This document shows positions 38,058 to 50,687 of a DNA stretch of 64,000 nt, in pieces; positions within the stretch are counted from its first letter, which is position 1; each line of letters begins with the position of its first letter. Position numbers and translations under genes: made by a program. The notes under the pieces are model-generated. The model did not search any database, was not told the DNA's origin, and was given only the letters and a program-made list of their open reading frames with translations. Source of the DNA: Zhihengliuella sp. (GTDB lineage: Bacteria; Actinomycetota; Actinomycetes; Actinomycetales; Micrococcaceae); the NCBI RefSeq assembly GCF_031178195.1, contig NZ_JAPSJL010000008.1, forward strand, positions 1-64,000. Direction: 5' to 3'.

Positions 38058-38894
38058 GTGACGAGCGCGCAGCACGGAGCCGCCGCACACGGTGGAGCGG
38101 ACCGCGAGTGGTCCATCCAGGAGGTCGCCCGGCTCACGGGGACCACCAGCCGGACGCTGCGGCACTACGACGACGTCGGTCTCCTGCCGCCGTCGCGCGT
38201 GGGGTTCAACGGGTACCGCTACTACGACGCCGACTGCCTCCTCCGCCTGCAGCGGATCCTCCTGCTGCGCGGGCTTGGCCTCGGCCTGCCGGCGATCCGG
38301 GAGGCCCTGGACGCCTCGGCGACCGGGACGGCGGCCTCCGCCCCAGGGCGGGCGGCGCAGGCCCGGGCGCTGGACGCGCACCTGGGCGTGCTCCGCGGCG
38401 AGCAGGAGCGGCTGGCGCGGCAGATCGCGTCGGTCGAGCGGACCATCACCACATTGAAGGGAGGTGGCGATCTCATGGCGGACACCATGTTCGACGGGTT
38501 CGACCACACGCAGCACAAGGACGAGGTGACCGAGCGCTGGGGAGCCGATGCCTACCGGGCGCGCGACCGCTGGTGGCGCGGCCTGGGCGACGAGGAGCGC
38601 GCCGCGTGGAAGGCCCGCGTGCGCGAGCTCGGCGAGGACTGGGCAGCGGCCGCCGCGGCGGGCGAGAGCCCGGCGTCGGAGCGCGCCCAGGCGCTCGCGG
38701 CCCGCCACGTCGAGTGGCTGGGCTCCGTGCCCGGCACGCCCGGGGCCGGTGGGGCGCCGGACACGGGCTACATCGCCGGGTTGGCGGATCTGTACGTCGC
38801 GGACGAGCGCTTCGCCGCGAACTACGGCGGCGCCGAGGGCGCAGGATTCGTGCGCGACGCCCTGCTCGAGTGGGTGCGCCGGCACGACGGCTGA
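38058..38894 (+). CDS. MerR regulator with C-terminal TipAS antibiotic-recognition domain
   Basis: WSIQEVARLTGTTSRTLRHYDDVGLLPPSRVGFNGYRYYD..; TipAS-like FDHTQHKDEVTERWG..YVADERFAANYGG. Confidence 0.9.
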   Translation: MTSAQHGAAAHGGADREWSIQEVARLTGTTSRTLRHYDDVGLLPPSRVGFNGYRYYDADCLLRLQRILLLRGLGLGLPAIREALDASATGTAASAPGRAAQARALDAHLGVLRGEQERLARQIASVERTITTLKGGGDLMADTMFDGFDHTQHKDEVTERWGADAYRARDRWWRGLGDEERAAWKARVRELGEDWAAAAAAGESPASERAQALAARHVEWLGSVPGTPGAGGAPDTGYIAGLADLYVADERFAANYGGAEGAGFVRDALLEWVRRHDG

Positions 38895-39065
38895 ACCCAG
38901 GGGGGAGGCCGGGCAGGCCAGGGGCGGGACCTGCCCGGCCCGCCCGGCCACACCGAGCGGGCCGAGCGGGCCGAGCGGGCAGGGCCGACTATTTAGGGCC
39001 GATCATGCCCGGGATTTCCCCACCGAGTCCATCAATATAGGCGCGCGGGCTTTTCCGTAATCGAC

Positions 39066-39084
39066 TTAGGTTCGGCTAAGCTCG
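39066..39084 (+). promoter_or_regulatory. candidate DtxR/IdeR/DmdR iron box
   Basis: TTAGGTTCGGCTAAGCTCG vs TWAGGTWAGSCTWACCTWA (15/19). Confidence 0.65.
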
Positions 39085-39135
39085 GTCATCGACGCGGGCG
39101 GTCCCGCGGCCTGATTCCGAGCCCCTGGAGCACTC

Positions 39136-40182
39136 ATGAGGATCCGCACCCTCGCCTACGCCGCCCTGACGGCGACCCTGACCGCTGCCCTCGCCGGATG
39201 CGGGGCCTCCGAGCCCGTCCCGGAGGAGTCGGCCGCGTCCTCGGCCGCGGGCGAGGGCGTCACGGAGTACCCCCTGACCATCGACAACTGCGGCACCGAG
39301 GTCACGGTCGACGCCCCGCCGGAGCGCGTGGTGTCCCTGGACCAGAACTCCACCGAGATCCTCCTCTCCCTCGGGCTCGAGGACCGCGTGGTGGGCACGG
39401 CGTCCTGGACGGACCCGATCCTGCCGGAGCTCGAGGCCGCCAACGAGGACGTCCCGCGACTGGCCGACAACGCCCCCACCTACGAGGTCGTCCTCGGCGC
39501 CGATCCCGACTTCATCACCGCCTCCTTCGGCCGCCACCTCAACGAGACCGGCGTCGCCACCCGCGACCGCTTCGCCGAGACGGGCATCGAGACCTACCTG
39601 TCCCCCACCGACTGCGAGGGCGACGTCTCCATCAACGGCGGCGGCACGCGCACACAGCTGCTGGACGTCGAGTCCCTCTACACGGAGATCCGCGAGATCG
39701 CGGCCGTCTTCGACGTCCCCTCCCGCGGCGACGCGCTGGTCGCGGACCTGGAGGAGCGCACGGCCGCGGCGCTCGACGGCGTGGACGCCGACGGTGCGAC
39801 GGTCGCCTTCTGGTTCGCGGACACGCGCACGCCGTACATGGCCGGCGGCTACGGATCGGCGGCGATGCTCGCCGACATGTCCGGCATGGAGAACGTCTTC
39901 GCGGACACCCCCGACGACTGGCCGGCCATGGGCTGGGAGGCCGTCGTCGAGAAGAACCCGGAGGTGCTGGTCCTGGGCGACCTGCAGCGGGCGCGCTTCC
40001 CCGGCGACCTGCTCGAGGAGAAGATCGCGTTCCTCGAGTCGGATCCCCTGACCAAGACCATGGACGCGGTGAAGAACAAGCGGTACATCGCCCTCCACGG
40101 CGCCGAGATGAACCCGTCCATCCGCTCCGTCGACGGTCTGGAGAAGATCGCGGAGTTCTGGAAGGAGCAGGACGCTGGCTAG
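39136..40182 (+). CDS. FecB/BtuF-like ABC transporter substrate-binding lipoprotein
   Basis: Lipobox LAGC; PPERVVSLDQNSTEILLSLGLEDRVVGTASW. Confidence 0.9.
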   Translation: MRIRTLAYAALTATLTAALAGCGASEPVPEESAASSAAGEGVTEYPLTIDNCGTEVTVDAPPERVVSLDQNSTEILLSLGLEDRVVGTASWTDPILPELEAANEDVPRLADNAPTYEVVLGADPDFITASFGRHLNETGVATRDRFAETGIETYLSPTDCEGDVSINGGGTRTQLLDVESLYTEIREIAAVFDVPSRGDALVADLEERTAAALDGVDADGATVAFWFADTRTPYMAGGYGSAAMLADMSGMENVFADTPDDWPAMGWEAVVEKNPEVLVLGDLQRARFPGDLLEEKIAFLESDPLTKTMDAVKNKRYIALHGAEMNPSIRSVDGLEKIAEFWKEQDAG

Positions 40183-40189
40183 CGCGGTC

Positions 40190-41335
40190 GTGACGGACGA
40201 GGAGAGGACCGGCGTGGCCGGCTCGAACCGGGGCGCGGTCGCGGCGACCGTCGGCGCGCGGAGCACGAACGCCGCCGGCGCCGCGGCGCCGCGCGTCCTG
40301 CGCACGCGACGGCGTCTGCGCACCGCGCTGCTGGGCACCGTCTTCACCCTCGGCGGCCTGGCCCTGCTGGTCCTGTCGGTCGGTGTGGCGATCACGCTGG
40401 GCCCGGCCGACGTCTCGCTCGTCAACGTGCGCGACGTGGTCCTGAACCACCTGGCGGGTGCGCAGATCCCCGTGCGCGTCTCCGAGGACGCGATCGTCTG
40501 GCAGGAACGCCTGCCCCGCGCCCTCGTCGCGGCCGCCTGCGGTGCCGGCCTCGGCCTCTGCGGGGCGATCATGCAGTCGCTGCTGCGCAACCCCCTGGCC
40601 GACCCCTACGTCCTCGGCGTCTCCTCGGGCGCCTCGACGGGCGCCGTCGCTACGGGCGTGCTGGGCCTCGGCGGTGCGGCCCTCGGCCTCTCCGGCGGCG
40701 CGTTCATCGGCGCGCTCGTTGCGTTCGCCCTGGTGCTGGCGCTGGCCCGGATGGCCGGCGGCGGCAACGACCGCGTGGTCCTCGCCGGCGTCGCCAGCAC
40801 GCAGCTGTTCTCCGCGCTGACCTCGCTGGTCGTGTTCGCGTTCGCGGATTCCGACGAGACCCGCGGGGTCATGTTCTGGCTGCTCGGCTCGCTGGAGGGC
40901 GTGCGCTGGGACGACGTCGGGCTCTGCCTCGCCGTCGTCGCGGCGGGGACGCTCATCTGCCTGCGCTACGCCCACGCGCTGGACGCGTTCGCGTTCGGCG
41001 ACGAGGTCGCCTCCTCGCTCGGGCTCAACGTGCGCCGCGTGCGCCTGCTGCTGCTGCTCATGACCGCGCTCATCACGGCCACCCTGGTCAGCGTGGCCGG
41101 GGCGATCGGCTTCGTCGGCCTCGTCCTGCCGCACGCGGCCCGCCTGCTCTTCGGCTCCAGGCACACGCGCGTGGTTCCGGCCACGGCCGTCCTCGGCGCG
41201 ATCTTCATGGTCTGGGTCGACGCCGGTTCCCGCGTAGCCTTCGCCCCCACCCCGCTCCCCGTGGGCGTCGGCACCGCGCTGATCGGTGTGCCGGTGTTCA
41301 TCGCCCTGCTCGCCCGACGCCGGAGGGCCGCATGA
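40190..41335 (+). CDS. FecCD-family iron-siderophore ABC permease
   Basis: LPRALVAAACGAGLGLCGAIMQSLLRNPLADPYVLGVSSGAS, GLVLPHAARLLFG. Confidence 0.94.
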   Translation: MTDEERTGVAGSNRGAVAATVGARSTNAAGAAAPRVLRTRRRLRTALLGTVFTLGGLALLVLSVGVAITLGPADVSLVNVRDVVLNHLAGAQIPVRVSEDAIVWQERLPRALVAAACGAGLGLCGAIMQSLLRNPLADPYVLGVSSGASTGAVATGVLGLGGAALGLSGGAFIGALVAFALVLALARMAGGGNDRVVLAGVASTQLFSALTSLVVFAFADSDETRGVMFWLLGSLEGVRWDDVGLCLAVVAAGTLICLRYAHALDAFAFGDEVASSLGLNVRRVRLLLLLMTALITATLVSVAGAIGFVGLVLPHAARLLFGSRHTRVVPATAVLGAIFMVWVDAGSRVAFAPTPLPVGVGTALIGVPVFIALLARRRRAA

Positions 41336-42138
41336 GCCTCACCGCCGAGAACGTCAGCTGGGAACGCGAGGGCGCGCTGATCGTCGACGGCGTGACCCTG
41401 CGCCCCGAGCCCGGAGCGACCGTCGGCCTGCTCGGCCCCAATGGGTCCGGCAAGTCCTCCCTCCTGCGCCTGATGCAGGGCGTCACCAGGCCGTCCGCCG
41501 GCGCGATCGAGCTGGACGGCGAGCCCCTCTCCTCGATCCCGCGCCGTGCCATCGCGCGCACGGTCGCGGTCGTCAGCCAGCACGCGCAGACCGACATGGA
41601 CATCCTCGTCGAGGATGTCGTGCGCCTCGGCCGGATCCCCCACCGCGGCACCTGGGGCGGCGACCCGGACGCCGACCGCGCCGCCGTCGTGCGCGCCCTC
41701 GAGCAGACCGGCCTGAGCGACAAGGCCGACCGGCTCTGGCACACGCTCTCCGGCGGCGAGCGGCAGCGGGCGCAGATCGCCCGCGCGCTGGCGCAGGAGC
41801 CGCGCGAGCTGCTGCTCGACGAACCCACCAACCACCTGGACATCCGGCACCAGCTGGAGCTGCTCACGCTCGTCACCCGGCTGCCGATGACCACCGTCGT
41901 CGCGATGCACGACCTCAACCTCGCCGCGATGTTCTGCGATCACCTGGTGGTCCTCCACGGCGGATCGGTCGTCGCCGGCGGCACGCCGCGGGAGGTGCTC
42001 ACGCCCGAGCTGATCCGCGAGGTCTACGAGGTGGAGGCGGAGGTCGCGTACGACGACGTCCGCGGCCGCGTGGTCATCTCCTTCGAGCCCGCCGTGCTCG
42101 CCAGCCGCTGCCCCCTGCCCGCCCTGCAGGGGCAGTGA
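41332..42138 (+). CDS. iron-siderophore ABC transporter ATP-binding protein
   Basis: GLLGPNGSGKSSLLRLMQG, LSGGERQRAQIARALAQEPRELLLDEPTNHLD. Confidence 0.95.
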   Translation: MSLTAENVSWEREGALIVDGVTLRPEPGATVGLLGPNGSGKSSLLRLMQGVTRPSAGAIELDGEPLSSIPRRAIARTVAVVSQHAQTDMDILVEDVVRLGRIPHRGTWGGDPDADRAAVVRALEQTGLSDKADRLWHTLSGGERQRAQIARALAQEPRELLLDEPTNHLDIRHQLELLTLVTRLPMTTVVAMHDLNLAAMFCDHLVVLHGGSVVAGGTPREVLTPELIREVYEVEAEVAYDDVRGRVVISFEPAVLASRCPLPALQGQ

Positions 42139-42275
42139 CGACGCCGCCCGGAACCGGGTGACGGACTCCTCCCAGGCCGCTATGCTCGCCGCACAGGCCT
42201 GACGCCACCCCGCGCACGGCGGATGCGGCGGCCCCGGGCCGGACCAACGGACTCGACCGCCAGGAGGGCCGCGCG

Positions 42276-42632
42276 ATGCCCAGCGATGCCGAACGGAACG
42301 ACGCCGGGGGCGTGGTGCTCCACGCCTCCCACAGCCATCTCTTCCCGGGCGCACGGCTCGCGGCGCCGGGGATCGACGGGCCGCTCGCCGGCGGCTCCCG
42401 CCCTCGATCGCGCGAGGCGCGGATCGTCTTCTCCGACTTCTCGGAGGCCGACGCCGAGCTGAGCCGCCCGGACGACGCGCCCTCCGGCCACCTGCTGCTC
42501 GACGTGGCCGAGTACCGCACGGCGCCCGGCCGGGTGATCTCGGCCCGTGCCTGGCTCGTGGAGCAGCAGTCCACCGGCGGCGACGGCGCGGCGGCGGGGC
42601 TCCGCGTCGTCGCCCGGGCCGATCTCCCCTGA
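42276..42632 (+). CDS. hypothetical protein
   Basis: 118-aa ORF in a gap between annotated genes. Confidence 0.45.
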   Translation: MPSDAERNDAGGVVLHASHSHLFPGARLAAPGIDGPLAGGSRPRSREARIVFSDFSEADAELSRPDDAPSGHLLLDVAEYRTAPGRVISARAWLVEQQSTGGDGAAAGLRVVARADLP

Positions 42633-42783
42633 GAGCACCCGGCGGCCGACCGGCGGCAGCACTCGGTGGGCCCCCGCCGGCGGGATAGACTCCGCCGGGA
42701 TCGGACCGGACCGCACGGAGTCGCGGGATGAGGCGTGGAGCACGTTGTGACGTCCGGCTTCCGGGCGGTCTGGGCGCACGACC

Positions 42784-42800
42784 TGACACGTGTCAAAATG
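42784..42800 (+). promoter_or_regulatory. TGACACGTGTCA palindrome / GTGTCAAAATG element upstream of M20 peptidase gene
   Basis: Perfect 12-bp palindrome; GTGTCAAAATG shared with 49027-49037. Confidence 0.5.
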
Positions 42801-42843
42801 GTGCGCCTGCGCCCACCCCTGCCCATCTGAAGGAGCTGCAGCC

Positions 42844-44010
42844 GTGACCCACACCCCCGCGAGCCTGGCGGAGATCGAGCGTCTCATCCGGTTCGACACC
42901 ACCAGCCGGGACTCCAACCTCCCGCTCATCGAGCACGTCGTCGGCCGACTCCGGTCCGCCGGCGTGGAACCCACCCTGATCCACAACGCCGAGGGCACCA
43001 AGGCCAATCTCCTGGCTACGTTCCCGGCCGCCGACGGATCGACGCGTGGCGGGACCGTCGTCTCGGCGCACACCGACGTCGTCCCCGTCGACGGCCAGGA
43101 CTGGTCGAGCGACCCGTTCGCCCCCGAGACCCGCGACGGCCGCCTGTACGCGCGCGGCAGCGCCGACATGAAGTCCTTCCTGGGCGTCGCCGTGGCGAAG
43201 ATCGACGACATCGCCTCCCAGCCGCTCGCCGAGCCGATCCACTTCGCCTTCTCCTACGACGAGGAGGTCGGCTGCATCGGCGCGGTGTCCCTCGTGGACG
43301 CGATCGTCGAGGCCGGCCTCGAGCCCACCGGCTGCGTGGTCGGCGAGCCCACGAGCATGCGGATGATCCGCGGGCACAAGTCCGTCAACGTCCTGCAGGC
43401 GCACTTCCGGGGCGTCGCCGCCCACTCGTCGCTGCCCACCGAGGGCGTCAACGCGATCGCGCACGCCGCCGAGTTCGTCCGGTTCGTCCACGGCGTCGCC
43501 GCCGAGTTCGCCCAGGACGGCCCCTTCGACGACGGCTACCTCGTCCCCTACACCACCACCACGGCCAACCGGATCGACGGCGGCATCGCCGTGAACACCA
43601 TCCCCGCCGACTGCACGGTGACGTTCGAGTTCCGCTCGATCGCCGCCGTCGACCAGGAGGCCCTGATCGAGCGCTTCCGCGCCGAGGTCCAGCGCATCGG
43701 CGCGCTCATGCGCGAGCAGGACGGCTCCGCCGGCGCCGAGTTCACGATCGTCTCCACGGCCCCGGGGCTGGAGACGGCCGACGACGCCGCCATCGTCTCC
43801 CGGGTCGTCGAGTGGGGCGCCGACGCGAGCACCGGCAAGGTCACCTACGGGACCGAGGCCGGCCTCTTCTCCCGCGCGGGCATCCCCACCGTGGTCTGCG
43901 GCCCGGGCGACATCGCCCAGGCGCACGCCCCCGACGAATTCATCGAGCTGGACCAGATCGCCCGGTGCGAGTCCTTCTTCGACCGCCTCATCGCCGCGCA
44001 CCGCGCCTAA
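42844..44010 (+). CDS. acetylornithine deacetylase (ArgE)/M20 family amidohydrolase
   Basis: VSAHTDVVPVDGQDWSSDPFAPETRDGRLYARGSADMKSFLGVAVA; GTG start. Confidence 0.92.
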   Translation: MTHTPASLAEIERLIRFDTTSRDSNLPLIEHVVGRLRSAGVEPTLIHNAEGTKANLLATFPAADGSTRGGTVVSAHTDVVPVDGQDWSSDPFAPETRDGRLYARGSADMKSFLGVAVAKIDDIASQPLAEPIHFAFSYDEEVGCIGAVSLVDAIVEAGLEPTGCVVGEPTSMRMIRGHKSVNVLQAHFRGVAAHSSLPTEGVNAIAHAAEFVRFVHGVAAEFAQDGPFDDGYLVPYTTTTANRIDGGIAVNTIPADCTVTFEFRSIAAVDQEALIERFRAEVQRIGALMREQDGSAGAEFTIVSTAPGLETADDAAIVSRVVEWGADASTGKVTYGTEAGLFSRAGIPTVVCGPGDIAQAHAPDEFIELDQIARCESFFDRLIAAHRA

Positions 44011-44021
44011 GGAACGGAACC

Positions 44022-45311
44022 ATGACCACCACCGCACCCCTGGAAGTTACGCCCGAGCGGCTCAAGACCGCCAAGAAGGCCGTCATCAGCAGCTCCATCG
44101 GCGCCGCCCTCGAATGGTTCGACTTCACGGTCTACGCCGCGTTCGCCGTCGTCATCGCCGCGAACTTCTTCCCCGCCGAGGGCGAGAACGCCCACGTCAT
44201 CGGACTGATGCAGACGTTCGCCGCGTTCGCGCTGTCCTACCTCATCCGCCCCCTCGGCGCGATGATCCTCGGCAGCTACGCGGACCGCAAGGGCCGCCGC
44301 AACGCCCTGACGCTGACCATGATGCTCATGATGGTCGCGACCCTGATCATGGCGCTGGCGCCCACGTACGACCAGGTGGGCGTGTGGGCCGCCGCCGCGA
44401 TCCTGCTCTCGCGACTGGTGCAGGGCTTCTCCGCCGGCGGCGAGTTCGGCACGGCCACGACGTTCCTGATCGAGTCGGCGCCGCACCGGAAGGCCTTCTA
44501 CGCCTCCTGGCAGATCGCCGCCCAGGGCGCCTCGCTGCTGCTCTCCTCCGCCTTCGGGTTCGCGCTGTACACGTGGATGTCCGAGGAGGACCTGTACGCG
44601 TGGGGCTGGCGCATCCCGTTCTTCTTCGGCCTGCTCGTGGGCCCCGTCGGCCTCTACATCCGCGCGCGGATGAGCGAGACCGAGGAGTTCGTGAACACGG
44701 TCAAGGAGAAGACCCCGCTGAAGACCGTGCTGACGCAGCACCTCGGCCGCACGCTGGCCGGCATCGGGGTCATCGGCGTCGCGACGATCTCCGTCTACAT
44801 GATCTTCTACATGCCGACGTTCGCGATCGAGCACCTCGACGTCCCGGCCACGGCCGGCTACCTCGGCGGTCTCGTCGCCGGCATCGTGATGCTGGTCGGC
44901 TCCCCGTTCGTCGGGGCGCTGGCCGACCGGGTCGGCGCCGGGCGCGTCATGACCGTGTCCGCCCTCGCCGCGCTCGTGCTCGCCTGGCCCCTGTTCGCGT
45001 TCCTGGTCGCGTTCCCGAGCGTGGCGACGCTGGTGGCCGTGATCGTGATCCTCGGCATCGTGATGACGTTCTACTTCGCCCCGCTGCCGGCGCTGCTCTC
45101 CGCGCTGTTCCCGGCGGCGATCCGCGGCTCGGGCCTGTCGGTGTCCTACAACATCGGCGTCACGCTCTTCGGCGGCATCGCGCCGCTGGTGCTGACGTGG
45201 CTGCTGGATGCCACCGGGGTCCTGGAGACGCCGGGCTACTACTACCTGATCATCGCGGTGGTCTCCCTGGTGGGCCTGCACTTCGTGCGGACCCGCTACC
45301 AGGACCGCTGA
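44022..45311 (+). CDS. MFS transporter, MHS (metabolite:H+ symporter) family
   Basis: ISSSIGAALEWFDFTVYAAFAVVIAANFF, LIRPLGAMILGSYADRKGRRNAL, RLVQGFSAGGEFG. Confidence 0.93.
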   Translation: MTTTAPLEVTPERLKTAKKAVISSSIGAALEWFDFTVYAAFAVVIAANFFPAEGENAHVIGLMQTFAAFALSYLIRPLGAMILGSYADRKGRRNALTLTMMLMMVATLIMALAPTYDQVGVWAAAAILLSRLVQGFSAGGEFGTATTFLIESAPHRKAFYASWQIAAQGASLLLSSAFGFALYTWMSEEDLYAWGWRIPFFFGLLVGPVGLYIRARMSETEEFVNTVKEKTPLKTVLTQHLGRTLAGIGVIGVATISVYMIFYMPTFAIEHLDVPATAGYLGGLVAGIVMLVGSPFVGALADRVGAGRVMTVSALAALVLAWPLFAFLVAFPSVATLVAVIVILGIVMTFYFAPLPALLSALFPAAIRGSGLSVSYNIGVTLFGGIAPLVLTWLLDATGVLETPGYYYLIIAVVSLVGLHFVRTRYQDR

Positions 45312-45353
45312 CGGGCCGAGACCCGGACGCGCGGAGCAGATCCCCCGACGACG

Positions 45354-45401
45354 GACGCAGGGCCGGTCGATCCCGATTCCGGGGTCGACCGGCCCTGCGT
45401 C
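45354..45401. terminator. bidirectional terminator hairpin
   Basis: gacgcagggccggtcga / tcgaccggccctgcgtc. Confidence 0.7.
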
Positions 45402-45443
45402 TCGTCCGGGCCCTGCCCGCGGCGAGTCGCGGCGATCCTGCGC

Positions 45444-46305
45444 TCAGGCGGCGCGGACCGACTCGGTGAGGATGTCGCGCAGGATGTCGGCGAGTCCGTC
45501 CTCCTCGACCGGGGCCGTCACCTCGTCGGCGACGTCCTTGACCTCCTCGGGGGCCTGGCCCATCGCGACGCCGCGGGCGGCCCAGGCGAGCATCTCGATG
45601 TCGTTGCGGCCGTCGCCGGCGGCGACCGTGACGGACGGGTCGACATCCAGCATGATCCGCAGCTCCTCGAGCGCGGTGGCCTTGCTGACGCCCTGCGCGG
45701 CGATGTCCAGCCACGCGGTCCAGCCCACGGAGTAGGTCACGCCCGCCAGGCCGATGCTGCGGACGGCCTTGCCGAACTCCTCGGCGGTCGAGTCGGTGGA
45801 GAAGACCACCAGGCGCGTGGCGGTGGCCTCCATCATGTCCTCGAAGTCCACGCCGCGGGCCTCGACGCCGAAGCTGGCATCCTGGAACCGCTCCGTGGAG
45901 AGGAACTGGCCCTCGTCGTCCTCCAGGGCGAACTTCGCGGTCGGCAGCGAGTGGCGCAGTGCCTTCAGGGCCGGCGCGGGGTCGAAGGTCTTCCGGTCGA
46001 TGACCTCGTAGGCCTCCGGCAGCGAGGTGTCGATCCGCAGCGTCACGCCGCCGTTGGAGCAGACCGCGTAGCCCTCCTCGATGCCGAGCAGCTCCACGAT
46101 CGGGAGCGTGGCCCCGAGCGAGCGGCCGGTGGAGACCACCACGGTGTGCCCGGCCTCGACGACGGCGCGTGCGGCCTCGCGGACGGCCCCGCTCATGTGC
46201 CCCTCGTGGTCCACCAGGGTCCCGTCCACGTCGAGGCAGATCATCTTCTTGTCATTCATCTTCCGGTCTTCGGTGCCGGTAGCCAGTGTTTCGATCATCT
46301 CCATA
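45444..46305 (-). CDS. HAD-IIB family (Cof-like) hydrolase
   Basis: MICLDVDGTLVDHEG, VVVSTGRSLG, VAAGDGRNDIEML; exact start uncertain. Confidence 0.9.
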
Positions 46306-46441
46306 GTGAAGCACTTTCGGACGCGGCGCGCGACGCGCCACGGCACACCACCACCCCGCGGCAGCGGTTCTTCACCGGGGTTTCACCGGCTGCTCGCCGC
46401 CCCGTCCACCGCCGGTCGCGCCGCGGACGGGGCGGGGCGGG

Positions 46442-47995
46442 TCAGCGCTCCTCGGCCGCCGTCGTCAGCGTCTCGCCGCGGAAGAACGCGGGCCGGCGGA
46501 CGTACTGGACCACCATGATGACGACCCCGATGCCCAGCACGGCCATGCCGAGCACGAAGACCAGGCCGAGGCCGAAGAGGTGCGAGCCGGAGCCGTAGGC
46601 GGGATCCATGCTGTCGATGATGGTGGTGAAGAACAGGATCATCAGGATGATCCCGCCGATGCCCGGGCAGAGCAGCTGGAACACGAAGTTCCGCACGGAG
46701 GCCGTGAACGTCCGGCGGAAGTACCAGACGCTCGCGAAGGCGGTGATGCCGTAGTACAGGCAGATCATCATGCCTAGGGCCGTGATGGTGTCCCAGAGGA
46801 CGTTCTCCGAGACGAAGCGCATCACGGCGTAGAAGGCCGACGCGACGACGGCGGAGACGATCGTCGCGTAGCCGGGCGTGAAGAACCGCGGGCTGATACG
46901 GGCGAACTTCGGCGAGATGGCCCCGTAGTGGCCCATGGCCAGCAGGGTGCGCGCCGGCGAGACGAACGTCGACTGGAGCGAGGCCGCCGAGCTGGAGAGC
47001 ACGGCCAGCGAGACCAGCCAGGCGAACGGGCCGAGCACCAGGTGCGAGAGGTGGAAGAAGACGTTCTCCTGGATCTCCTCGTTGCCCAGGCCGTACTCGC
47101 CCGTGCCGACGCCGGCGAAGGCGATGAGTGCCACCGAGAGCAGCAGGTACAGGCCCACGATGATGAGGACCGTCAGGGTGGCGGCCTTGCCCGGCGTGGA
47201 CGCGGAGCCCTTGGTCTCCTCGTTCATCGTCAAGGTCACGTCCCAGCCCCAGAAGATGAAGATGGAGAGGGACAGGCCGGCCGCCACGGCGGAGAAGGAG
47301 TCGACGGCGAACGGGTTGAACCACTCGAGGGCGATCGGCGTCGCGTCGAACGCGCTGCCGTCCGCGACGTGCCTGAGCGCGGCGACGGCGAAGACCACCA
47401 GCACGGCGATCTGGAAGCCGACCAGCAGATACTGCACCCGCTGGGTGGTCTGCATGTCGCGGTAGGAGATGGCCGTCGCCGCCGCCATGAACGCCAGACA
47501 GGTGGCGACGTTGATCAGGGGGTTGCTCGTCAGGTCGGCGATCCCCGCGTTGCCCGTGATCTGGGCCAGGAGCAGATAGAGGAAGTCGACGGCGACGCCG
47601 GCGAGGTTGGACAGGACCAGGATGGTCGCGGCGATGAGGCCCCAGCCTCCCAGCCAGCCGATCCACGGTCCGAAGGCCCGGGTGGCCCAGGTGAAGGAGG
47701 TGCCGCTGTCCGGCATGGAGCGGTTGAGCTCCCGGTAGCCGAAGGCGACGAGGAGCATCGGGATGAAGCCGACCAGGATGATGGCCGGGACCTGCAGCCC
47801 GACGGCGGACGCCGTCGGGCCGATCGCGGCCGTGAACGTGTAGGCCGGGGCGATGCAGGAGATGCCGATGACGATCGCGCCGATCAGCCCCACGGAGCCC
47901 GCGCTGAGGCCCTTCTTGCTCAGGCCGCCGGACTGCTCGGCCGGCTCGCCGCCGGGGGCGGGCGCCGCGGCCCGCTGCGCTTCGGTGCTGCTCAT
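46442..47995 (-). CDS. APC family amino acid permease
   Basis: GLIGAIVIGISCIAPAYTFTAAIGP, SMPDSGTSFTWATRAFGPWIGWLGGW. Confidence 0.92.
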   Translation of the reverse strand: MSSTEAQRAAAPAPGGEPAEQSGGLSKKGLSAGSVGLIGAIVIGISCIAPAYTFTAAIGPTASAVGLQVPAIILVGFIPMLLVAFGYRELNRSMPDSGTSFTWATRAFGPWIGWLGGWGLIAATILVLSNLAGVAVDFLYLLLAQITGNAGIADLTSNPLINVATCLAFMAAATAISYRDMQTTQRVQYLLVGFQIAVLVVFAVAALRHVADGSAFDATPIALEWFNPFAVDSFSAVAAGLSLSIFIFWGWDVTLTMNEETKGSASTPGKAATLTVLIIVGLYLLLSVALIAFAGVGTGEYGLGNEEIQENVFFHLSHLVLGPFAWLVSLAVLSSSAASLQSTFVSPARTLLAMGHYGAISPKFARISPRFFTPGYATIVSAVVASAFYAVMRFVSENVLWDTITALGMMICLYYGITAFASVWYFRRTFTASVRNFVFQLLCPGIGGIILMILFFTTIIDSMDPAYGSGSHLFGLGLVFVLGMAVLGIGVVIMVVQYVRRPAFFRGETLTTAAEER

Positions 47996-48870
47996 GCTGT
48001 GGTTTCCTCGTCGTCGAAGGTCAGTTCGGTCTCCCGCGGCACGATCACCAGCGGGACGGGCAGGGCGCGCAGCATCTTGCCGGCGGTGCTGCCCAGGAAG
48101 ATGCGGCCGCGGGAGGCCAGGCGGGAGGAGCCGACGACGACGAGGTCGCCCGGCTGCCACTCGGCCCGGCGGACGGCGTCCTCGATGCCGCGGCCCGTCG
48201 CGACGGCGACGTCGGTCACCGCCACCTCGGGCGCGGCGGCCTCGAGGAAGCCGCGGACGCGCTCGGCGTGCTCGTTCGCCGTCGCGGCCGCCTCGGGGGC
48301 GGCGGGGTCCTTGGCGTCGAGCGGGACGAGCGAGAGGACCCGCAGGTCGGTGCCGGTCCGGGCGGCGGCCGCCGCGGCCGCGCGCATGACCTCCTCGGCG
48401 CCGGGGCGCAGGCCGACGGCGGCGGTCACGCGCGTCAGGGGCGCCTCGGCCGGCGTCCCGCCCCCAGCGCCCCCGGCCGTGGTCGGTGCCACGGCGACGG
48501 GGACCCGGGAGGCGTGCAGGAGCGAGTTGGCGACGCTCCCGGTGCGCTCGCGCCCGCCGACCACGATCAGCGTGGTGCCCAGTCGGCGGCTCGCCGACAG
48601 CAGCCCGCCGGCGGCCGAGTCCGCCTGCTCCACGTGGGTGCCCACGCGGACGTCGTCCGGCACCGTGCCCGCCGCCTCGGCGAGCCACGACTCTGCGGCG
48701 GTGCGCACGTGCTGCGTGTAGCCGGCGTCGCGCGGCACCAGGGCGCCCCGCTCCGACGTGAGGACCATGACCAGCTCGAGCGTCGCGTCGAGCGCGCGCG
48801 CCAGGCGGACGCCGAGGCGCACGGCGTCGCCTCCGCCCGCGGTATGGGTGTAGCCCACCAGAATCTTCAT
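47992..48870 (-). CDS. universal stress protein (two UspA domains)
   Basis: MKILVGYTHTAGGGDAVRLGVRLA, LIVVGGRERTGSVANSLLHASRVPVAVAP, VVGSSRLASRGRIFLGSTAGKMLRALPVPLVIVP. Confidence 0.9.
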   Translation of the reverse strand: MKILVGYTHTAGGGDAVRLGVRLARALDATLELVMVLTSERGALVPRDAGYTQHVRTAAESWLAEAAGTVPDDVRVGTHVEQADSAAGGLLSASRRLGTTLIVVGGRERTGSVANSLLHASRVPVAVAPTTAGGAGGGTPAEAPLTRVTAAVGLRPGAEEVMRAAAAAAARTGTDLRVLSLVPLDAKDPAAPEAAATANEHAERVRGFLEAAAPEVAVTDVAVATGRGIEDAVRRAEWQPGDLVVVGSSRLASRGRIFLGSTAGKMLRALPVPLVIVPRETELTFDDEETTA

Positions 48871-49007
48871 GGGGATGCCTGTCCTCTTCCTCGTCGGCAC
48901 CGGGCCGGGCCGGTTTCCGGCCCGGGGGTCTGTGCGTGGCCCGCTGCCGGCGCCCTGTGATCGGGCGCACCACGCGGGGCACAGGGACGAGCGTAGAGTT
49001 GTGCGGA

Positions 49008-49037
49008 ACACATCTGCGGTGCCAATGTGTCAAAATG
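49008..49037 (+). promoter_or_regulatory. ACACAT-N11-ATGTGT inverted repeat with GTGTCAAAATG in the divergent UspA/PucR intergenic region
   Basis: acacatctgcggtgccaatgtgtcaaaatg. Confidence 0.45.
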
Positions 49038-49082
49038 AACGACTTTCTTTAGCCAAAACGGCATGACCCGGACGGAGCCGTC

Positions 49083-50687
49083 GTGACCGCGACCCTGCGC
49101 AGCCTCCTGGCGGATCCCGACCTGGGACTCCGCCCGCTGACCGCCCCGGAGGACGGCGGATGTCTCGACACGCCGCTGACCTGGGTCGCGGGAAGCGATC
49201 TGGCGGATCCGACCCCCTTCCTCGGCGTCGGCAACGCCGTCCTGACCACCGGCGCCCAGTTCGGCGGCACGTCGCCGGCGCGGTTCAAGGACTACGCGGC
49301 CCGGCTGCGGGACAGCGGGATCGTGGGACTGGGCTTCGGGACCGGCGTGCTGCGCCCGGACGTGCCGCCGGAGCTCGTGGCCGCGTGCCGCGCGGCCGGC
49401 CTGCCGCTGTTCGAGGTCCCCTACCGCATCCCGTTCCTGGCGGTGATCCGCCGCGTCGCGGACAGCGTCTCGGCGAACCGGCACGCCCGCGAGAGCTGGG
49501 CCCTCGGCGCGCAGCGCGCCATCTCCTTCGCGTCCCTCCGCGCCGACGGCGTGGACGCGAGCCTCGCCGAGCTCGCCCGGCAGCTGGACCGCTGGGTGGC
49601 CCTCCACGACGCGGACGGGCGCCGGACCCACCTGGTTGGGGCCGGCGCGGGGCGGGCGGAGGATCCGCTCGTGGCCGAGCCCCTCGCCGTCGAGGTCTCG
49701 CGCCTGCTGGGGCGCGGTCAGCGCTCCGGATCCACGGTGGTCTGCGACGGCGACGCCCTCGAGTTCCAAACCATCGGCCGTCGCGGCGAGCTCCGTGGCG
49801 TGCTGGTCATCGGCGCCGGGAGCGACGGCGGGGGACGCGACGACGAGGGGGACGACGGAGGAGCGAACGATGGCGGAGCGAACGACGGCGGAGCGAACGG
49901 GGCCCTCGACCAGGCGGCCCGTTCCGTAGTCGCCAGCGTCATCGCGCTCGTGGGGCTCGCCCTGGAGCAGAACCGGGCGCTGAACCGCTCGCGCGCCGCG
50001 CTGCGCACCGGCCTGATGACGGCCCTGCTGGCCGGTGATCTGGCCCTCGTGCGCGACATCGCCCAGCGGATGGGGTCGCCGCTGCCCGCGGAGCCGGTGC
50101 GGGTCCTCTTCTTCAGAGCGCCGGAGGCCGGTCCGGACCGTCTCGACGGCTGGCTGGAGGACGCGATCGCCTCCGCCCCCGGGCGCCTGTTCGGAGCCTC
50201 GCACCGGGACGGCGTCGTGCTCGTGGCCGACGAGGCGGAGGCGCGCCAGGCCCTGCGGGCCGCGCGTCGCAGCCCGGCTACCCACACGGGGATCTCCGAC
50301 GCCGTCGTCTACGCCGAGCTTCCGTCCGGGATCCGGCAGGCCGAGCAGGCCCGGGACCACGCGGAGCTGGTCGGCGCTCCCAGCGCGGCGATCTCCGACG
50401 TCGCCGAGAACGGCATGGCGGGGCTGCTCCCCGAGCTGCGGGCCCGGGAGGTCGCCCGGCGGCTGCTGGCCCCGCTGTCCCGCCACGACGACGGCTCCCA
50501 GCTGGTGGACGACCTGCGCACGTGGCTGGAGCACAACGGGCAGTGGGACCCGGCGGCCCGGGAGCTCGGCATCCACCGCCACACCCTCAAAGCGCGCATC
50601 GGCAGAGCCGAGCGCCTCCTGAGCCTGGACCTGTCCACCTTCGCCGGGCGGGCGGAGGTGTGGCTGGCGCTCCAGGCCGCCGGCTGA
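49083..50687 (+). CDS. PucR family transcriptional regulator
   Basis: N-term PucR-like domain (LADPDLGLRPLTAPEDGGCLDTPLTWVAGSDLADPTPFL); C-term HTH_30 LRTWLEHNGQWDPAARELGIHRHTLKARIGRAERLL. Confidence 0.9.
   Translation: MTATLRSLLADPDLGLRPLTAPEDGGCLDTPLTWVAGSDLADPTPFLGVGNAVLTTGAQFGGTSPARFKDYAARLRDSGIVGLGFGTGVLRPDVPPELVAACRAAGLPLFEVPYRIPFLAVIRRVADSVSANRHARESWALGAQRAISFASLRADGVDASLAELARQLDRWVALHDADGRRTHLVGAGAGRAEDPLVAEPLAVEVSRLLGRGQRSGSTVVCDGDALEFQTIGRRGELRGVLVIGAGSDGGGRDDEGDDGGANDGGANDGGANGALDQAARSVVASVIALVGLALEQNRALNRSRAALRTGLMTALLAGDLALVRDIAQRMGSPLPAEPVRVLFFRAPEAGPDRLDGWLEDAIASAPGRLFGASHRDGVVLVADEAEARQALRAARRSPATHTGISDAVVYAELPSGIRQAEQARDHAELVGAPSAAISDVAENGMAGLLPELRAREVARRLLAPLSRHDDGSQLVDDLRTWLEHNGQWDPAARELGIHRHTLKARIGRAERLLSLDLSTFAGRAEVWLALQAAG
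49854..49898. repeat. three 15-bp in-frame tandem repeats (GGAND linker) in pucR-like gene
   Basis: gacggaggagcgaac / gatggcggagcgaac / gacggcggagcgaac. Confidence 0.8.

Follow-up and report, generated by a model that had tools for sequence, protein, structure and literature searches.

Here, we find that a PucR-family regulator encoded in a 64,000-nucleotide stretch of a Zhihengliuella sp. contig (the window) is preceded by a 44-bp inverted repeat whose position, length, and half-site sequence are conserved among its relatives. We consider it probable, with moderate confidence, that PucR acts through this repeat on its own gene and on a divergent operon for a universal stress protein and an APC permease (usp-APC), and that an 11-mer shared with the promoter of a nearby M20 hydrolase-MFS transporter pair is mainly a core promoter element at that second place. 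A sequence-only reading of the same DNA had joined these genes in a nitrogen-compound scavenging regulon under PucR; comparison with relatives suggests that the remnant of a GABA/putrescine (GabR-like) regulon is the better description of what is seen.

The regulator gene, pucR (49083..50687, plus strand), encodes a GabR-type PucR-family protein of 534 aa with an N-terminal PF07905 and a C-terminal PF13556 domain, both above cut-off, and no further domain was found in it. By GTDB, the host genome is congeneric with Zhihengliuella salsuginis, and three of the four congeners carry a pucR orthologue, including Z. salsuginis KCTC 19466 (G048) and a record named Kocuria polaris MS50-16 (G093). The latter record (L048) falls in the GTDB genus of Z. 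salsuginis, and its strain name may be wrong. Identity between window and congeners is 62% for PucR, 92% for SerS, and 91 to 92% for the APC permease, against 84 to 93%, 94 to 99%, and 93 to 98%, respectively, among the congeners themselves; judged by these values, PucR in the window has diverged much faster than the products of neighboring genes. Its linker (residues about 245 to 275) carries a Gly/Asp/Asn-rich repeat insertion, GGGRDDEGDDGGANDGGANDGGANGA, that is absent from the congeners. The helix-turn-helix (HTH) segment, AARELG(I/V)HRHTLK(A/G)RI, barely differs between the window and the congeners, and a common DNA specificity is therefore likely.

Among described proteins, the closest is Corynebacterium glutamicum GabR, a PucR-type activator of gabTDP that is divergent from gabT and binds two 21-bp inverted repeats (PMC7652997). 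Like GabR, the window protein combines a PucR N-terminal domain with a C-terminal HTH, its congener orthologues are divergent from gabT, and inverted-repeat sites spanning about 45 to 55 bp lie in the intergenic region, a likeness that concerns geometry. Unlike in the GabR system, the window has usp-APC as the divergent operon in place of gabT-gabD and putrescine oxidase, and the ancestral cluster here includes a putrescine oxidase. Traits of the GabR type besides domains and operator are GABA-dependent activation, DNA binding, and the octamer; for PucR we infer both the DNA binding and the effector and suggest that it is a GabR-type regulator of GABA/putrescine use. Bacillus subtilis PucR, which governs purine catabolism, is of the same Pfam family but is reported to bind a non-palindromic site (PMC7652997), whereas the window has an inverted repeat and shows no purine genes in the vicinity. 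Membership in PmfR, a PucR-family activator (NCBIfam NF045769), was ruled out, with a weak match of 55 bits, strongest in the C-terminal DNA-binding region, against a curated cut-off of 800.

The candidate operator, an inverted repeat of the form TGCC...GGCA (49020..49063, plus strand), reads TGCCRAWNNGTCRAA-N14-TTYGACNNWTYGGCA, with arms of the type TGCCAATGTGTCAAA-N14-TTTAGCCAAAACGGCA; that of one congener (G020) reads TGCCGAATCGTCGAA-N14-TTCGACGGATCGGCA. A 44-bp inverted repeat is found at -64 before pucR orthologues in three Mycetocola genomes as well as in three congeners; when the upstream sequences are aligned, it ends 19 to 20 bp ahead of the pucR start, and the spacing is fixed in all seven operators. 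The geometry holds in the three Mycetocola species, whose PucR proteins are 40 to 41% identical, and the right arm in Mycetocola saprophilus, taken from the opposite strand (TGCCAATGTGTCGAA), is nearly identical to the window's left arm. In a weight matrix built from the six relatives only (congeners and Mycetocola), with the window sequence left out, the window's left arm scores 22.1 bits and leads all 127,970 positions (runner-up, 13.9 bits). The full operator, at 32.3 bits, leads as well (runner-up, 9.6 bits), but its right arm is weak at 10.2 bits, which counts against the operator reading. Across five whole genomes, the operator pattern matches at pucR every time, and its only other matches fall within ilvE-like coding sequences. 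PucR thus would most likely bind this repeat in the pucR-usp intergenic region, and control of PucR over its own gene, proposed from the sequence alone, is supported by the conserved operator before pucR and by the gene order of relatives. That earlier proposal had also placed each copy of the 11-mer on one half of an inverted repeat. Both repeats exist, but the one near pucR, ACACAT (49008-49013)-N11-ATGTGT (49025-49030), is not kept in relatives and was rejected as the operator, the conserved element there being the different, 44-bp repeat.

Directly divergent from pucR lies usp (47992..48870, minus strand; PF00582), and the start of the gene for an APC-family amino acid/amine permease (46442..47995, minus strand; PF13520) overlaps the usp stop. 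In the congeners, the gene order is serS, pucR, divergent gabT, a succinate-semialdehyde-type dehydrogenase, putrescine oxidase, usp, APC permease, and HAD, and it is to the permease of this gabT-puo cluster that the window permease is 91 to 92% identical. GabT was named by TIGR00700 (above cut-off), the dehydrogenase (gabD) by TIGR01780 (its best match, below cut-off), and the putrescine oxidase by PDB 3rha/2yg3. A gabT-like start, read from the sequence, is likewise divergent from pucR in Mycetocola. The window has no gabT, dehydrogenase, or putrescine oxidase gene between pucR and usp; pucR is divergent from gabT in three congeners and not in this genome, which makes the window protein, by gene order, a GabR-like orthologue without its gabT neighbor and not a gabT-linked GabR.

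The likely -10 element of the divergent promoter is TACGCT (48990..48995, minus strand), whose plus-strand form, CGTAGAGT/CGTAGGGT, is conserved in all four congeneric sequences, and CGTAGAGT is retained in the window despite the loss of gabT. Because three genes are missing and CGTAGAGT was kept, a deletion most likely left usp-APC adjacent to the PucR operator and to what had been the gabT promoter. Since usp-APC is now directly divergent from pucR, with the operator and the predicted divergent promoter both in the shared intergenic region, it is the best-supported target of PucR; its control, raised as a possibility by the sequence-only reading, gains support from the conserved operator, the divergent -10 element, and the gabT-gabD-puo-usp-APC order of relatives. 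PucR would accordingly control its own gene and a divergent promoter that formerly served gabT-gabD-putrescine oxidase and, since the deletion, serves usp-APC. A hairpin of the GGGCCGG-AAA-CCGGCCC type lies between the divergent promoter and usp (48870-48960); it resembles one after the putrescine oxidase of congeners and may mark the deletion joint. On another contig, this genome has a second GABA/putrescine cluster (L040; G000:C6:15001-35000) in a different arrangement, with a PucR-family gene of its own, an aldehyde dehydrogenase gene, and more distant gabT-like and putrescine oxidase-like genes (64% and 68% identical).

The 11-mer that first drew attention to these promoters, GTGTCAAAATG, is found on the plus strand at 42790-42800 and, within the left operator arm, at 49027-49037. 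The two copies begin 54 and 56 bp, and end 44 and 46 bp, upstream of the GTG codons at 42844 and 49083, which confirms what had been seen in the letters. Pattern searches, used for all genome-wide questions on motifs, found exactly two copies in 3,146,349 bases, at these two promoters, and likewise exactly two of the inner 9-mer, TGTCAAAAT; one-mismatch versions of the 11-mer add just two sites, one within a coding sequence and the other a few hundred bases upstream of a gene. Sharing an 11-mer means little by itself, as shared 11-mers are frequent in the upstream regions of this GC-rich DNA (50 among the 44 upstream regions of the window, compared with a mean of 25 in dinucleotide shuffles). 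A common 11-mer with at least seven A/T arose in 18 of 1,000 shuffles, and one that also lay at equal start distance (within 2 bp) arose in 0 of 1,000, both thresholds (A/T content and distance) being post hoc, set after the motif was seen.

The second promoter precedes an ArgE-like M20-family deacetylase gene (42844..44010, plus strand; NF005710 and TIGR01892 above cut-off), followed by a gene for an MFS metabolite:H+ symporter-like transporter (44022..45311, plus strand; PF07690, with TIGR00883 below cut-off). This pairing is seen in many Micrococcaceae, at most loci read, with neighbors that vary among other genera, and the 11-mer was not found in the upstream regions examined of M20-MFS pairs of other Micrococcaceae. 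Z. salsuginis is the only congener with the M20 gene and has both M20 and pucR; its M20 is 91% identical and lies on a different contig, without an MFS gene in the flank seen. That location, together with the varied neighbors elsewhere, rules out an ancestral linkage of M20-MFS and PucR. Set against G093, the window (38058-45311) additionally has, between a MerR-like gene (38058) and a HAD gene (45444), a siderophore-type ABC operon together with M20-MFS, so that the pair seems to be a later neighbor of the pucR cluster.

Upstream of the Z. salsuginis M20, GTGTGAAAATCG takes the place of the 11-mer, with GTGTGAAAATC at the site matching 42790..42800 and GTGTGAAAATCGTTCGCC aligned with GTGTCAAAATGGTGCGCC of the window. 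There, GTGTSAAAATSGTNCGCC is kept, the GTC core is changed to GTG, and the palindrome TGACACGTGTCA (42784..42795 in the window, its sole exact copy in the genome) is not kept. Both in distance and in sequence, TGTSAAAAT before M20 resembles an extended -10 element. A strict sigma-70 consensus scan detected no promoter at either 11-mer site, so that what supports the -10 reading is position and the comparison with Z. salsuginis. The M20-side copy is probably mainly core promoter (extended -10-like TGTCAAAAT) and not a conserved PucR operator; the pucR-side copy, part of the left operator arm, may also serve pucR as an extended -10 element. Counting against a core-promoter role are the identity of the two 11-mers, their matched distance in both promoters, and the 0 of 1,000 shuffles. 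Among six loci (L090, L091, L093, L095, L097, and L030), TGTGAAAAT precedes the M20 gene at L030 of Z. salsuginis and, in another genus, at L091 and L093, a hint that the M20 gene has a conserved promoter element of its own.

Control of M20-MFS by PucR, also part of the sequence-only reading, is a tentative alternative. On this view, the M20 copy would be one degenerate half-site of the operator, shorter by a base between TGAC and GTGTCAAAA, that this lineage acquired once the pair lay near pucR. The exact 11-mer, present twice in the genome at a matched distance to the start, is consistent with such a site, as are its rank of 3 of 128,002 by the relatives' motif when a one-base deletion is allowed and the weak binding of a single site by C. 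glutamicum GabR (PMC7652997). However, the rank of 3 mostly follows from the shared 11-mer itself: given the 11-mer, the conditional chance of the gapped match is p 0.02 to 0.04, and ungapped the site ranks 1808. Moreover, the relatives-only motif found no second arm at the M20 site, which rules out a full 44-bp operator there; all seven operators keep a fixed spacing; and Z. salsuginis has the GTC-to-GTG change though both genes are present. The 1-bp shift and the absence of the motif before the M20-MFS pairs examined in other Micrococcaceae likewise weaken this part of the proposed regulon.

A broader version, in which a GabR orthologue that lost gabT-gabD-puo diverged fast and took on a new regulon made up of a permease, a stress protein, and an ArgE-like deacetylase/transporter pair that had newly become its neighbor, strikes us as rather unlikely. 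We think it improbable that TGACACGTGTCA before M20 serves a different regulator as its operator, such as one of the LacI family (it is a palindrome with a central CG), with GTGTCA shared with the PucR operator by chance: a one-mismatch form, TGACACGTGTTA, lies upstream of a LacI-like gene (L105) and, at L107, immediately ahead of another gene's start, but there are only four such places genome-wide, against one for a control pattern, and upstream of the Z. salsuginis M20 the left half of TGACACGTGTCA has not been kept. The L105 promoter also carries CAGTAACACGAGTTACTG; together with TGACACGTGTTA at L105 and L107, this suggests a small LacI regulon whose motif resembles the M20 palindrome. Finally, although TGTCAAAAT looks like an extended -10 element at the expected position, we give almost no credence to the 11-mer as a general promoter or sigma-factor element lying before many unrelated genes, which is ruled out for the exact motif by its lack of any third copy and by the equally few 9-mer and one-mismatch sites in 3.15 Mb.

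With PucR acting mainly at its own divergent intergenic region, as we favor, the comparison gives the GabR-type PucR regulators of Micrococcaceae and Microbacteriaceae a concrete operator consensus. It would also offer a natural case in which a local regulator kept its operator after the loss of its catabolic operon.
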